DNA from: Cytophagaceae bacterium
GTDB lineage: Bacteria > Bacteroidota > Bacteroidia > Cytophagales > Spirosomataceae
Direction of reading: 5' to 3'
Length of the DNA stretch: 64,000 bases
Assembly (NCBI GenBank): GCA_947450365.1
Contig: CANFVE010000005.1
Coordinates: 39,096 to 103,095 of the forward strand
Positions within the stretch are counted from its first letter, which is position 1. Each line of letters starts with the position of its first letter. The position numbers were made by a program, and so were the translations under genes. The notes beneath the pieces were generated by a model. It searched no databases. It saw nothing but the letters and a program-made list of their open reading frames with translations, and had not been told where the DNA came from. Of this stretch, positions 56,065-63,808 are shown in pieces.

Positions 56065-56886
56065 ATGGTTTATAAAAATATTTCATCTGCATCGAATAAA
56101 ATCTTGCAATTGTTTCTTCCGGTTTACCGACAATCATTTCATCTGCATGAAGTTTTCGACGCTTTTCCTGATAAAAATAAGGAGTCGATTCGAGCATTGC
56201 TTGCGGGTATGGTGAGGAGAGGTCTTTTGATGAGGTTAAAAGAAGCCCATTATTTTATTATACCATTTGATCAACCCGCTGAATCGTTTATGCCGAATTG
56301 GCATTCGATTTCGGCTGATTTAGTGGGGAACCAACCTCATTACATCGGATATTTTTCCGCCTTGGAAATTCATGGGTTAATCACTCAGCCGTCGATGGCC
56401 CAACAAATCGTAGTCGCCAAACAAGTGCGGCCTTCTAAAATTTACTTGAAAAAAATTCCATTTCGATTTATTTACCATTCCCCAACTCATTTTTTTGGAT
56501 TTGAAAAAAAATGGATCAATGGGTATCAACAGGTGTATTGTTCTTCCCTTGAAAAAACAATTATCGATTGTCTCTTTAAACCAGAATATGCCGGTGGAAT
56601 CATTGAAATTGCCAAAGCTATGTTCATGGCGAAAGACCAAATTAAATTTGATCAACTTCTTGAATTTGCCATAAAGTTTAATTCTAAAGCTGTAATCAAG
56701 CGTTTGGGTTATTTACTGGATCTCCTTGATCTGCAAACTGATATTTTGCCTGAGTTAGGTAGGCTCAAAACAAATGGATTTGTAGTTTTGGATACCGAAT
56801 TGCCCGCGGTGGGTAAGCGAACAACTGCCTGGAATATCCAGCAGAATGTAGCTCCAGAAACCATTAAAGCCTCCTTATTCACATGA
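56065..56886 (+). CDS. AbiEi-like type IV antitoxin (HTH)
   Basis: N-terminal wHTH; HYIGYFSALEIHGLITQPSMAQQIVVAKQV; YQQVYCSSLEKTIIDCLFKPEYAGGIIEIAKAM, typical AbiEi architecture. Confidence 0.85.
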   Translation: MVYKNISSASNKILQLFLPVYRQSFHLHEVFDAFPDKNKESIRALLAGMVRRGLLMRLKEAHYFIIPFDQPAESFMPNWHSISADLVGNQPHYIGYFSALEIHGLITQPSMAQQIVVAKQVRPSKIYLKKIPFRFIYHSPTHFFGFEKKWINGYQQVYCSSLEKTIIDCLFKPEYAGGIIEIAKAMFMAKDQIKFDQLLEFAIKFNSKAVIKRLGYLLDLLDLQTDILPELGRLKTNGFVVLDTELPAVGKRTTAWNIQQNVAPETIKASLFT

Positions 56887-57362
56887 TTTCAGCCTCGGGG
56901 ATTCATTTTATAATTCAATACCAAGGCCCTTTGGGCGGATTCGGTAGGCATAAAGGGATAAAAGTAGACATTTCAAAAGAGGAGATTGTTCTCTTTCCAC
57001 CAGATCAGAGATCTGTGTTTATTGACTATGCAGATTTGTTATAATTTAAAATTGCTTGTTATTTATTAGAAGAAGTTTTCATTGAAAAAATGAGATGCAT
57101 TATCCAACGAATGCAGGCCCGAGACTATTATGACCTTTGGTTTATTAGTGCAAATGAAAACCTTTCTTTGGGATTATTATGGAATGATTTTGTCCGTAAA
57201 TGTGAATCGAAGCGCATTAATCCTGCGCTTTTTTATACTAGGTTAAAAGAACGTGTTCCTTTTTACCGGGGTCAATGGCGACATTCTCTTGGGAATCAAA
57301 TTCGCGATCTACCCGCATTTGAAAAAGTGGAACGAGAAATAAATCGCTATTTCAAAACATGA
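56883..57362 (+). pseudogene. AbiEii-like nucleotidyltransferase toxin remnant (N-terminal catalytic core missing, internal stop)
   Basis: ATGA overlap with antitoxin; reading frame MISASGIHFIIQYQGPLGGFGRHKGIKVDISKEEIVLFPPDQRSVFIDYADLL-stop(57042-57044)-FKIACYLLEEVFIEKMRCIIQRMQARDYYDLWF...; continuous frame across the stop; no GSX10DXD motif present. Confidence 0.82.
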
Positions 57363-57798: not shown

Positions 57799-57849
57799 GC
57801 CACGAATGTAAGAATTTTCTTATCTTTAAGCATCACCTCTAAAATGAAA

Positions 57850-58879: not shown

Positions 58880-59611
58880 ATGAAATGTGATTTTGCAGTC
58901 ATAGTGCCGATGGCAAATGAGGAAAAAGAATTTTCAGTATTTGTGGGCCAATTAAGTGAGGTGTTAACGAAACTCGGCGCAGGAAAAGTTTATTTTATCG
59001 TAGATCAGGTTTCCAAAGACAATACTCGGACTTTGTGTGCTGAATTATCTGAAAAAGATGCACGATTCCAACTTGTTTGGGCGCCAGAAAATAAAAATGT
59101 TGTCGACGCATACATCAAAGGCTATCAAGTAGCCTATGAAAATAAGCATGAAATTATCATCGAAATGGATGCCGGTCTTTCCCATGATCCGCGGGCCATT
59201 CCGATGTTCTTGCGCGTGTTGAATGAAGGAAATGATTGTGCGTTTGGGAGTCGGTTTATCAACGGCGGCTCGATCTCTGAATCCAATTGGAAACGAACCT
59301 TTTTATCCAAAATAGGTACCCTGGTTTCGAATCTTTTGCTGGGCACCTCCATGTACGACATGACCTCTGGTTTTCAGGGGTTTAACCGACAAATTGTCAA
59401 AGAATTTTTGGCCTACGATTTACTTTCCAAGGCCCATTTTTATCAAACAGAATTGCGGTATTTATTGAGGAAAAAAAGGTTTGCCGAAATTCCCATTCAT
59501 TACAAGGCGCCCTCGCCGAGTGTTTCCAAAAAAGCAATTTACAACTCGATTTTTGTGTTAAGTTATTATATTCTTAAACGATTTACGTTTAACCAACCCG
59601 TCATTAATTAA
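58880..59611 (+). CDS. GT2 glycosyltransferase (DPM synthase-like)
   Basis: FAVIVPMANEEKEFSVFVGQL; FIVDQVSKDNTR; IIEMDAGLSHDPRAIP; FGSRFINGGSISESNWKR. Confidence 0.88.
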   Translation: MKCDFAVIVPMANEEKEFSVFVGQLSEVLTKLGAGKVYFIVDQVSKDNTRTLCAELSEKDARFQLVWAPENKNVVDAYIKGYQVAYENKHEIIIEMDAGLSHDPRAIPMFLRVLNEGNDCAFGSRFINGGSISESNWKRTFLSKIGTLVSNLLLGTSMYDMTSGFQGFNRQIVKEFLAYDLLSKAHFYQTELRYLLRKKRFAEIPIHYKAPSPSVSKKAIYNSIFVLSYYILKRFTFNQPVIN

Positions 59612-59618
59612 CCCGTTC

Positions 59619-60617
59619 ATGGATTCTCCTTTTTTAGTTGTCACGTCGATCGCAGATGATACCAATGCCATTTTAAAGCAATATTCCTCGGAATGTAAGC
59701 AGCGCGGCGTTCCTTTTATTTTGATCGGTGATACAAAAAGTCCAGATTCTTTTTATCAAGAGGGTTGCGAGTTTTATTCAGTGGAGAAACAATTGCAATT
59801 GGATTTTGCCATGCCTAACCAAATTCCCGTGAAGCATTATGCTCGGAAAAATATTGGCTATTTAATCGCCATCGCAAAAGGTGCCACGCAAATCATTGAA
59901 ACCGACGATGATAATCTGCCCTACGAATCGTTTTGGGACGAGCGACAGATAAAGATTCAAGCGAATAAATTGGAAAATAAGGGTTGGGTAAATTTGTATA
60001 AATATTTTGCGGATACTAATATATGGCCGCGCGGATTTCCGTTGCAACATATCTTAGATGGCATTCCTGAAGTAGGGGAAACGGAGCTGGTGCATTGTCC
60101 GATCCAACAAGGCCTTGCCGATGAAAATCCCGACGTCGATGCGATTTATCGATTAATTTTACCATTGCCCATAAAATTCAATGAGCGTTCGCCCATCGCC
60201 CTTGGAAATAGGGCGACTTGTCCGTTCAATAGTCAAAACACGACCTGGTTCAAAGAAGCTTTTCCGTTGCTTTATTTGCCTTCGTATTGCAGTTTTCGGA
60301 TGACGGATATTTGGCGGTCCTTTGTGGCGCAGCGCGTGGCGTGGACCTGCGGTTGGTCCGTCTTATTTCACAACAGCACAGTCTATCAAATCCGCAATGA
60401 CCATAGCATCATCAAGGATTTTGAAGATGAAATTTCGGGCTATTTGAATAATGCCAAAATCATGCAAAGCCTGAATGATCTTCCTCTACAAATGGGTGTT
60501 TCATTTATACATGAAAATTTACGTCTCTGTTATGAGGAGCTCGTTCGTTTGGGGGTTGTGGATGAAAAGGAGTTGGCCTTGGTGGATTTGTGGATTCAGG
60601 ATTTACAAAAGATCTAA
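59619..60617 (+). CDS. STELLO-like (DUF288) putative glycosyltransferase
   Basis: LVVTSIADDTNAILKQYSSECKQRGVPFILIGDTKSP; ARKNIGYLIAIAKGATQIIETDDDN; NIWPRGFPLQHI; PIQQGLADENPDVDAIYRL; CPFNSQNTTWFKEAFPLLYLP; matches remembered STELLO/DUF288 motif order. Confidence 0.82.
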   Translation: MDSPFLVVTSIADDTNAILKQYSSECKQRGVPFILIGDTKSPDSFYQEGCEFYSVEKQLQLDFAMPNQIPVKHYARKNIGYLIAIAKGATQIIETDDDNLPYESFWDERQIKIQANKLENKGWVNLYKYFADTNIWPRGFPLQHILDGIPEVGETELVHCPIQQGLADENPDVDAIYRLILPLPIKFNERSPIALGNRATCPFNSQNTTWFKEAFPLLYLPSYCSFRMTDIWRSFVAQRVAWTCGWSVLFHNSTVYQIRNDHSIIKDFEDEISGYLNNAKIMQSLNDLPLQMGVSFIHENLRLCYEELVRLGVVDEKELALVDLWIQDLQKI

Positions 60618-60745
60618 TTTTTAAGGAATTGTCGACTTGATTTCATTCAAGCGCTTATTTGCAAAGGCCTTCAAAATAGGTTTTTTGTGTATTCATGGAA
60701 ATTCGTCGGATTTCATATTACACCTTTTTTACGTAATTTCAGGCT

Positions 60746-62560
60746 ATGAACGCTAGGTCTTCCCAAACCCTCATTCTCCTTGTTTTTGGCTATTGTTGTT
60801 TGTCGCTGACCCCAGCTCCGTGGTATGCCGTTGTGGGTTTAGATGCCAGCTGGGCGGAGGCGATGCTGATGACGATTAATTCGGGAAAGGTTTTTGGTCG
60901 GGATTTTATTTTTAATTATGGGCCCTTGGGCTATTTGAATGTCCGTGTCTTGCCGCAATATTTTTCGGGCTATGCGCTGATGCTCGTCGATTTCCTCACG
61001 ATTGGCCATTTCATCTATTTTCTCCGTAAAGCTTTACACAAGGAGGGTGCTACTCGGCTATGGACCTTGGTCGGAGCGGGGATGTTATTGTGGCCCTGGG
61101 GTTTCTTTGCCGACTTCTCCTTTACCTATTTCTATTTCTTCCTGTTTTGGATCTTGGAAGCGCGCGCTTTGCGCAAGTCATGGCCTTTGTTTGTGGCGGC
61201 GGGCTTGTCGGTGGTGATTTTTTATGTGAAAGTCAATCTGAGTTTGATAGTCGTATTTCTTTTTGCTTTGGCGCTCATATATTTCTCGTTTGTGGAGAAA
61301 TTTTCCAAAAAAGCGATATTTCTTCCCTGGCTCGTTCAAATCCTGGGGATCTTATTGGGCGCTTGGTACCTCCGGGTGGATTTGTGGCATTATTTGCGGT
61401 ATAGCATGGATATGATATCGAGTTATCCAGATGGGATGTCGGTGATTCAGCTTTCAAAAAGGTATTTGTTTATTTTACTGGGCCTGGAGGCTTTGATGGT
61501 CTTGGGTTTAATGCTTTATGTCATCAAAGAAATCAAATCCTTTTGGAGCTACCTGCCGGTGTATGCGTTCGTCGGGATTACCGCTTTTTTAGGTTTTAAG
61601 CAGGCGCATATTGCCATTTCGAATCTGAATATGTTTGGATTCTTTTTGTTGCTGCCTATGCTGGGACTATTGTTGTATTTATTTACGGATGTCAAAAGCA
61701 AGTCTTATTATGTCTTGGCCTGGGTGTTGATGTGTCAAATCGCGGCGACGGGCTATATTCGTTGGGTCGATCAAATCCCCTACAAAGCCATTTCATTCTC
61801 TCCGATTGCCTATTTGAAGGGCATTATTTCCTACGATTATGCCCATAATTTCGACCAAAACCCGATTCCCCTTTCTCCGCGGGTCAAGGCCCTGATTGGT
61901 CAGCAGACGGTGGATGCAATGAATAATGAGTTGTCGATGATATATTTCAATCAACTGAATTACAATCCTCGGCCCATCGTGCAGACCTATGCGGCGCATT
62001 CGGCGCTGTTGGCCGATGTGAATGGGGCGAAATACCGGTCGGAGACGGGGCCAACCTTTGTGTTCTACAAATTAGATGAATTTCGTTGGCAAAATCCTTT
62101 TTGGGCGGATGCGGAGGCGAACGAGGCTTTGTTGACGCATTATACCCTCATCGACACCGCCCTTATCTCTGGCCAAACCTTCCATGTCTTCAAACGCCTC
62201 GCTAAACCCCGAACCGTTTCCATGCAAGACATGCATATCCGCATGGAGCGTGGGAAAGAGATATTTTTTCCTAAGGGGGGATTGGTCAAATTGACGGTGG
62301 ATATGGACTTTACGTTTATGGAGAAATTGGTTCGATTTGCGTTCCAACCGCCCCTCGTCTATGCCGATGTCCGATATGCCGATGGCCAAACGCGGACCTT
62401 CCGTGTATCCGACAAGATCATGAAAGGCGGTGTGCTGGGGAATGTGCGGGTGACGGATCAAGCGGAACTCGAGACCTTTTTTCGCTATCAAGGCCAGCGC
62501 TCGGTCCCGGCGATCTCCGTTCGTTTTTATGTGCCTTCGCTCTTACCGACCTTTAAATAA
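60746..62560 (+). CDS. Multi-pass membrane protein with C-terminal soluble domain (GT-C-like, function unknown)
   Basis: 604 aa; LDASWAEAMLMTINSGKVFGRDFIFNYGPLGYLNVR then about ten hydrophobic helices and a ~220-aa soluble tail. Confidence 0.65.
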   Translation: MNARSSQTLILLVFGYCCLSLTPAPWYAVVGLDASWAEAMLMTINSGKVFGRDFIFNYGPLGYLNVRVLPQYFSGYALMLVDFLTIGHFIYFLRKALHKEGATRLWTLVGAGMLLWPWGFFADFSFTYFYFFLFWILEARALRKSWPLFVAAGLSVVIFYVKVNLSLIVVFLFALALIYFSFVEKFSKKAIFLPWLVQILGILLGAWYLRVDLWHYLRYSMDMISSYPDGMSVIQLSKRYLFILLGLEALMVLGLMLYVIKEIKSFWSYLPVYAFVGITAFLGFKQAHIAISNLNMFGFFLLLPMLGLLLYLFTDVKSKSYYVLAWVLMCQIAATGYIRWVDQIPYKAISFSPIAYLKGIISYDYAHNFDQNPIPLSPRVKALIGQQTVDAMNNELSMIYFNQLNYNPRPIVQTYAAHSALLADVNGAKYRSETGPTFVFYKLDEFRWQNPFWADAEANEALLTHYTLIDTALISGQTFHVFKRLAKPRTVSMQDMHIRMERGKEIFFPKGGLVKLTVDMDFTFMEKLVRFAFQPPLVYADVRYADGQTRTFRVSDKIMKGGVLGNVRVTDQAELETFFRYQGQRSVPAISVRFYVPSLLPTFK

Positions 62561-62678: not shown

Positions 62679-63215
62679 GTGGTTTTAGACACAATTTTTT
62701 CGGGAAAGATTCGGGTAGCGCTGCTCACCAAATTACTTTTGAATCCAGAGAGCCGGGTATACCTGCGGGGTTTGGAGCGAGATTTGGGTGTGAGTAGCAA
62801 TACGGTACGGGTGGAGTTAAACAAATTGCAGGATATGCATTTGATCGAGGTGCAAGATGATCCTGAAAACACCAAAGTCAAGAACTACGTGGTCAATCAA
62901 GCGCATCCGATGTTCTCGACTCTGCGTGGAATTATTTTGCAATTTGTAGGTCTCGATCAAATCGTCGACCAAGTCATCAAAAAACTCGGGAACCTCGACG
63001 AAGTCTATTTAACCGGCGATTTAGCGGAAGGAAAAAATTCACCCTTTGTGGACCTGGTGCTGGTGGGGGATGTGGATAAGGCTTATTTATACCAATTGAT
63101 CGAAAAAGCAGAACAACTCGTCCAAAAAAAAATTCGTGTAGGCGTGTTTAAGAGTCAGGAATTTAAGATGAGTGTATTGGATGGGATCGGGGTATGGATG
63201 CGGTTGGTGGGGTAG
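62679..63215 (+). CDS. Winged-HTH (ArsR-like) regulator with C-terminal degenerate nucleotidyltransferase-like domain
   Basis: GTG start; GKIRVALLTKLLLNPESRVYLRGLERDLGVSSNTVRVELNKLQDMHLIEV HTH; DEVYLTGDLAEGKNSPFVDLVLVGDVD resembles an MNT core with altered catalytic residues. Confidence 0.75.
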   Translation: MVLDTIFSGKIRVALLTKLLLNPESRVYLRGLERDLGVSSNTVRVELNKLQDMHLIEVQDDPENTKVKNYVVNQAHPMFSTLRGIILQFVGLDQIVDQVIKKLGNLDEVYLTGDLAEGKNSPFVDLVLVGDVDKAYLYQLIEKAEQLVQKKIRVGVFKSQEFKMSVLDGIGVWMRLVG

Positions 63216-63385: not shown

Positions 63386-63808
63386 ATGAAAAAGAAAGCA
63401 GTAATAGTAAGCGGTTATTTCAATCCAATCCACAAAGGGCATATTGAATATTTTAATAATGCCAAAACAAATGGGGAATATTTGGTAGTTATTGTAAATA
63501 GTGACTATCAACGAGCATTGAAAGTGTCTAAAGAATTTCAAAACGAAGATGAAAGAGTTTTTATAGTTTCCAACATCAAAAGTGTAGATGAAGTTTTTTT
63601 ATCAATTGACCAAGATAGGACCGTTTGTGAAACAATAAGGCTTATCCATCAACAATTATTTACAGATTTTGAATTAGCGTTCGCTAATGGTGGTGATCAA
63701 AATAATAATTCAATTCCTGAAGTACCAGTTTGTCATGAATTAGGAATTGAGTTGATTGATGGATTAGGAGATAAAATTCAGTCTTCAAGTTGGTTGTTAA
63801 ATAAATAA
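63386..63808 (+). CDS. Cytidylyltransferase-like (adenylyltransferase/cytidyltransferase, glycerol-3-P CT / RfaE-like) protein
   Basis: AVIVSGYFNPIHKGHIEYFNNAKTNGEYLVVIVNSD with HxGH motif. Confidence 0.85.
   Translation: MKKKAVIVSGYFNPIHKGHIEYFNNAKTNGEYLVVIVNSDYQRALKVSKEFQNEDERVFIVSNIKSVDEVFLSIDQDRTVCETIRLIHQQLFTDFELAFANGGDQNNNSIPEVPVCHELGIELIDGLGDKIQSSSWLLNK

Follow-up and report, generated by a model that had tools for sequence, protein, structure and literature searches.

Gene content of the locus and family of the 332-aa protein

The window analyzed here, the whole stretch of 64,000 nucleotides taken from contig CANFVE010000005.1 of a Cytophagaceae bacterium, contains two adjacent genes encoding a DPMS/GtrB-like family 2 glycosyltransferase (GT2) and a protein related to plant STELLO. 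The GT2 (243 aa, 58880..59611) was assigned by Pfam Glycos_transf_2, a profile match to PfDPMS and linkage, and the STELLO-type / GT75-fold enzyme (332 aa, 59619..60617) by Pfam PF03385, matches to MtdL and an AlphaFold2 (AF2) model. A third gene (60746..62560), starting 128 nt downstream, encoded a polytopic membrane protein of 604 aa with a C-terminal soluble tail according to a crude scan for transmembrane (TM) segments, a possible GT-C-type transferase. An initial annotation had described these three open reading frames, all on the plus strand, as a glycosylation module. The reading frames were present as described, together with the close spacing of the first two (a 7-nt gap) and the motifs quoted from the 332-aa protein. 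Its observation and interpretation as a whole held in part: the GT2-STELLO-like pair was conserved elsewhere, but the polytopic gene was not a conserved neighbour. The near-constant pairing with a lipid-sugar synthase suggests an undescribed two-gene pathway.

The DUF288/STELLO identity proposed for the 332-aa protein was confirmed at the family level, since the PF03385 match (E 9.4e-14, 51.5 bits) exceeded the gathering cut-off of 27.8. The alignment was limited to residues 227-331, the last third, which correspond to profile positions 1-104 of 387, and the protein ends there. PF03385 was also matched at E<=0.1 by all 40 members of the STELLO-like family alignment. The Pfam RGP family (PF03214) gave no match for the 332-aa protein and weak matches for 3 of its 40 relatives (best E 0.003), whereas it was matched by an MtdL fragment. 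Canonical RGP was ruled out as a family in Bacteroidota, with no sequence above the cut-off among 198 genomes.

The only solved relatives of the 332-aa protein found by sequence were MtdL structures (phmmer 2.4e-22; family profile 4.5e-35), at about 26% identity. Its AF2 model had a mean pLDDT of 93.2, and the structural comparison placed it on the GT75 fold, including the core and C-terminal helices peculiar to that fold, with MtdL closest. Foldseek matched the model to MtdL 7xps over nearly the whole chain (E 5e-25, TM 0.87/0.79), followed by plant OsUAM2 8cid (4.4e-14), and the remaining matches were generic GT-A. Nearly all members of the STELLO-like family were without a TM segment in a hydropathy scan. 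The protein is soluble and has a single domain; it lacks both the membrane anchor and the C-terminal domain of STELLO and represents only the portion that resembles GT75, with GT75/MtdL as its most informative relative. Its Pfam family links it to STELLO and its structure to GT75, so that it bridges the two in bacteria, and the branch of the STELLO/GT75 superfamily to which it belongs is new, bacterial and widely paired. No reports on STELLO-like proteins from bacteria or on GT75 proteins from Bacteroidota were found in the open-access literature.

MtdL is a GT75 GDP-L-galactose/GDP-L-fucose pyranose mutase from Marinactinospora (PDB 7xpr-7xpv, 7yua, 7yv0, 8hl8). The two proteins share the whole-chain fold, DDDN, the reactive Arg, and equivalents of the sugar-site and base-pocket residues T13/I15/D40. 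They differ in that MtdL matches Pfam RGP and is encoded in an antibiotic cluster, while the 332-aa protein matches Pfam STELLO and is paired with a polyprenyl-phosphate GT2. Plant RGP/UAM proteins (GT75; OsUAM2 8cid) also share the fold, the DDD motif and the Arg, and again it is the Pfam RGP match that the window protein does not have. Arabidopsis STELLO1/2 (DUF288/PF03385) contain the DD, WPRG Arg and PDVD motifs in the same order. Unlike the bacterial protein, which is soluble and encoded in an operon with a GT2, they carry a type II membrane anchor (an N-terminal TM segment) and a C-terminal domain, and reside in the Golgi lumen. In plants, STELLO proteins govern how cellulose synthase is assembled. 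Their bacterial relative, which is soluble, has one domain, a high-confidence model, a near-invariant active site and a fixed partner, offers a tractable protein for asking whether the STELLO/GT75 core acts as a mutase or a transferase.

Pairing with the GT2 and distribution

The GT2 matched Pfam Glycos_transf_2 with 56.3 bits, and its family profile matched best to solved PfDPMS (5mlz, 5.5e-28), followed by ArnC (1e-17), in agreement with its initial description as DPM-like. It resembles DPMS, ArnC and GtrB in this profile match and in the acceptor-phosphate residues. It differs from them in having DAG in place of DXD, Pro in place of the A-loop Arg, and no TM helices, none being predicted in its 243 aa.

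Linkage was analyzed in 82 distinct loci, about half of them from named records and the rest from genomes of the same class. In 69 of the 82 loci, a GT2 of this family lay no more than four genes from the STELLO-like gene and on its strand; in 59 it was directly adjacent. A divergent STELLO-like clade, scoring 130-154 bits against the family profile, was paired with an equally divergent GT2. The distance matrices of the two proteins were correlated (p 0.001), with a Mantel r of 0.88 overall and of 0.62 in the main clade alone. A GtrA/DPMS_TM gene lay between the GT2 and STELLO-like genes in four loci (L002, L003, L009 and L011) and was absent in the window. The arrangement may follow the logic of GtrABC and four-component surface glycosylation systems, with its GT2, its GtrA-type flippase (in these four loci) and a variable polytopic protein as the putative transferase. 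It is unlike them in adding an obligatory GT75/STELLO-type enzyme, and in that GtrA is mostly encoded outside the locus.

Named hosts included Pontibacter, Salinimicrobium, Geomonas and Fulvivirgaceae, and the pair spans at least Bacteroidota and Desulfobacterota. The STELLO-like gene was detected in 47 of 395 sampled Bacteroidia genomes (roughly 12%). All 36 further congeneric genomes that were searched lacked it, and it is therefore accessory in the source genome.

Some loci carried other neighbours. Two STELLO-like genes (L093:5001-6008 and L094:5075-5998) had no DPMS-like GT2 nearby, and each followed an overlapping gene, encoding 335 and 307 aa respectively. The products of the overlapping genes had no Pfam or NCBIfam match and are candidate alternative partners. 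L101, L106, L108, L115, L119 and L133 encoded, adjacent or close to the pair, a tandem double short-chain dehydrogenase (SDR) of 676 aa with an HpnA-like and a LegB/3beta-HSD-like half, which may modify a sugar or lipid in the same pathway. Another apparent recurrent neighbour (c2) was a thiamine-phosphate kinase, and was rejected as a pathway gene because it was a chromosomal neighbour in one group.

Active-site residues and possible function

Residue equivalences were obtained from sequence alignments with MtdL and from the residue roles described for it (PMC9937993). T13, I15, D40, DDDN109-112, R159 and D195 of MtdL correspond to T9, I11, D38, DDDN 96-99, R138 and D172 of the 332-aa protein, and S228/Q229, R257, D260, R289 and H292 correspond to S205/Q206, R227, D230, R259 and H262. 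R138 occupies the position of the autoglycosylated/catalytic Arg, and D230 that of the base. Across 79 sequences, which represent two clades, these residues showed little or no variation. All six residues that are essential for the MtdL mutase, D109, R159, D195, Q229, R257 and D260 (PMC9937993), were kept in the 79 sequences checked. DDD96-98 together with R138 occurred in 79/79, and D172/D174 in all sequences checked. The equivalents of D195, Q229, R257 and D260 were all conserved, as was that of S228 except in a single distant member, which had Thr. The same residues can be aligned with STELLO, of which DD205-206, R271 and DVD297-299 are equivalent to DDD96-98, R138 and D172-V-D174. In Arabidopsis, DD205-206 and DVD297-299 are required for complementation (PMC4906169).

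A lipid-linked sugar is well supported as the pathway class, and surface molecules of the bacteria probably receive an unusual sugar through it. The lipid-linked or surface glycan pathway suggested initially gained support from the DPMS-like GT2, from GtrA in four loci and from the polysaccharide genes at the site. We tentatively propose, with somewhat less than even confidence, a two-gene lipid-linked sugar module in which the GT75-type enzyme acts as a nucleoside diphosphate (NDP)-sugar mutase feeding the GT2. The GT75-fold enzyme would bind an NDP-sugar via the DDD motif and remodel it at R138, most likely by a pyranose to furanose ring contraction as in MtdL, Hyg20 and the plant UAMs. The DPMS-like GT2 would then load the product onto polyprenyl phosphate, the presumed lipid acceptor. 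The lipid-linked sugar would be turned outward by a flippase (GtrA where encoded) and moved onto a surface glycan by a polytopic GT-C-type transferase that differs from locus to locus, in the window perhaps the 604-aa protein. If the STELLO-like enzyme does feed the GT2, it would supply furanosyl donors for surface glycans without a flavin, in the roughly 12% of sampled Bacteroidia genomes that have the gene. The balance tips slightly towards the mutase and away from a transferase: R138 and the residues around it do not vary, and the fixed pairing is explained if a mutase lies beside the only glycosyltransferase that would use its product.

GDP-L-fucose is the best guess for the substrate; MtdL and Hyg20 act on GDP-L-fucose and GDP-L-galactose. 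In L010, gmd (588 bits) and fcl (496 bits) adjoin the pair. Fcl-like epimerases are also neighbours in the divergent clade, where locus L095 has the gene row GT2, STELLO-like, Fcl-like epimerase and PMT_2-like polytopic protein. Fcl of true strength (E-value <1e-100) was encoded in 45 of the 47 genomes with a STELLO-like gene versus 246 of the 348 without (p 7e-5, phylogeny ignored).

Several observations weigh against the mutase proposal. The equivalent of MtdL D87 was Tyr74 in 72/72 sequences of the main clade and Ile in the divergent clade; this position is Asp in bacterial GT75 and Ser in active plant GT75, and neither occurred in the sequences checked. D87N/S in MtdL and S91Y in AtRGP2 abolish mutase activity (PMC9937993), which cautions against simply naming the protein a mutase. 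The MtdL Mn ligand H287 was replaced by Gln257 in 79/79 sequences, the divergent clade included; this objection is tempered by PfDPMS, in which a Gln serves as a metal ligand (PMC5526996). STELLO R271, at the RGP self-glycosylation position, is dispensable in plants (PMC4906169). On the GT2 side, 62 of the 64 main-clade partners had Gly at the PfDPMS metal ligand D91, and 63 had Pro at the A-loop Arg R202. No GT2 was found in 13 of the 82 loci, several of them at contig ends. Two genomes with a STELLO-like gene, one of them 97% complete, had no true Fcl, and the GDP-fucose link, which combines one direct neighbour case with a phylogenetically confounded association, is a lead. Further substitutions in the STELLO-like family relative to MtdL were R90 to Lys77 in the main clade (Arg in the divergent clade), S86 to His, and N42 mostly to Lys.

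The replacement of the mutase-critical D87 and H287 positions would also fit a true glycosyltransferase, with the GT2 making a polyprenyl-phosphate sugar and the STELLO-like enzyme adding a second sugar from an NDP-sugar to that or another acceptor. We regard this as possible, though somewhat less likely than the mutase. STELLO itself has been proposed to act as a transferase and requires its DD and DVD motifs, not the Arg (PMC4906169); GT75 proteins have transferase (autoglycosylation) activity, and the family matches STELLO in 40/40 members versus three weak matches to RGP. The invariance or near invariance of R138, D172, D230, S205 and Q206 in both clades, distant members included, argues for the mutase instead, and transferase activity and an acceptor are not established for STELLO in the literature covered.

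The same two positions are different in AtRGP5, an inactive protein with Tyr at the D87 position, His287 not conserved and R257 absent (PMC9937993). By analogy with plant STELLO in cellulose synthase assembly, the 332-aa protein might be a GT75 relative with an accessory role or altered catalysis, which only binds a nucleotide sugar or organizes the GT2. We consider this very improbable, since the rest of the active site is near-identical across two phyla, including the Arg and the Asp base, which a scaffold would not need, and since R257 is kept.

Conservation in the GT2 was mapped on PfDPMS (PMC5526996) for 69 partners, 64 of which belonged to the main clade. In the latter, the acceptor-phosphate residues R117, R131 and S135 and the sugar contacts D89 and H94 (PfDPMS numbering) were kept in 63-64 of 64. 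The window GT2 accordingly retained D97, H102, R125, R139 and S143, and had DAG (G99) for DAD and P211 for the A-loop Arg. The divergent-clade GT2s showed the reverse, with D91 and R202 kept and D89 and H94 changed. PfDPMS D91A has some residual activity (PMC5526996), so the loss of D91 does not prove inactivity; this unusual loss supports a possible non-standard donor for the GT2.

These patterns would also be compatible with a composite enzyme, in which the sugar is held and activated on the STELLO-like subunit, perhaps bound to Arg138 as an adduct, before it passes to the polyprenyl phosphate held by the GT2 subunit. Main-clade GT2s keep the acceptor-phosphate and sugar contacts without the metal ligand and the diphosphate Arg, the STELLO-like protein retains the nucleotide and diphosphate residues, and the pairing is near obligatory. 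We nevertheless consider it unlikely, as we do the related idea of a single glycosylation machine in which the GT75-fold half keeps the nucleotide, metal and reactive-Arg site, the DPMS-fold half keeps the polyprenyl-phosphate site, and the sugar would pass between them to yield a polyprenyl-phosphate furanoside through an undescribed route. The residual activity of PfDPMS D91A implies that loss of the metal ligand need not disable the GT2, divergent-clade GT2s retain D91 and the Arg, and a few STELLO-like genes have no nearby GT2.

The third gene and the surrounding region

The polytopic nature and soluble tail of the 604-aa protein were borne out by five strong TM peaks (TM counts here are from a simple hydropathy scan), but it had no relative in Pfam, NCBIfam or PDB. 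A conserved trio was ruled out. No homologue was found in 41 related loci searched, and relatives were encoded in 18 of 394 other Bacteroidia genomes, mostly at 21-28% identity and unlinked to the pair. Its family shared a conserved D33 and a GPL59-61 motif. Polytopic proteins in general were enriched at position +1 after the pair (23/75 loci versus 4/322 distant positions) and belonged to several unrelated families, and profile comparison detected no relation between the 604-aa family and the other downstream polytopic proteins. A locus-specific polytopic transferase beside the pair is plausible from these sequence features. The polytopic gene of L095 showed a weak PMT_2 match, below the cut-off.

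In L016:3917-7553, L017:6634-8469, L030:2699-4501 and other loci of Tannerella/Dysgonamonadaceae/Prevotellaceae type, the gene directly after the pair encoded a polytopic protein about 605 aa long, whose C-terminal tail is TPR-like. It contained conserved RGSGDWD and GYTETYA-type motifs and had only weak TPR matches in Pfam. The recurring downstream protein of Tannerella/Prevotellaceae-type loci gave a poor AF2 model (pLDDT 58), and a GT-C fold reading was dropped.

Downstream of the third gene, an HTH-type regulator-like gene (62679..63215, plus strand) had orthologues in six congeneric genomes at 75-82% identity. In one congeneric genome (L161), its orthologue was the first gene of a polysaccharide locus, followed by Polysacc_synt_2, RmlD-type and DegT aminotransferase genes. 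The orthologues of this gene and of the gene at 57844 were on different contigs in congeneric genomes; the module therefore lies at a rearranged or inserted edge. A cytidylyltransferase-like (RfaE domain II-like) gene at 63386-63808, just downstream and at the cut contig end, is probably part of the adjoining polysaccharide locus; the contig end coincides with the window end. Upstream, at 56065-57362, an AbiEi-type antitoxin gene (PF09407, 26.7 bits) was followed by a C-terminal AbiEii fragment only (90 aa, PF08843), and this type IV toxin-antitoxin pair looks decayed, with the upstream part of the toxin frame broken by stops.

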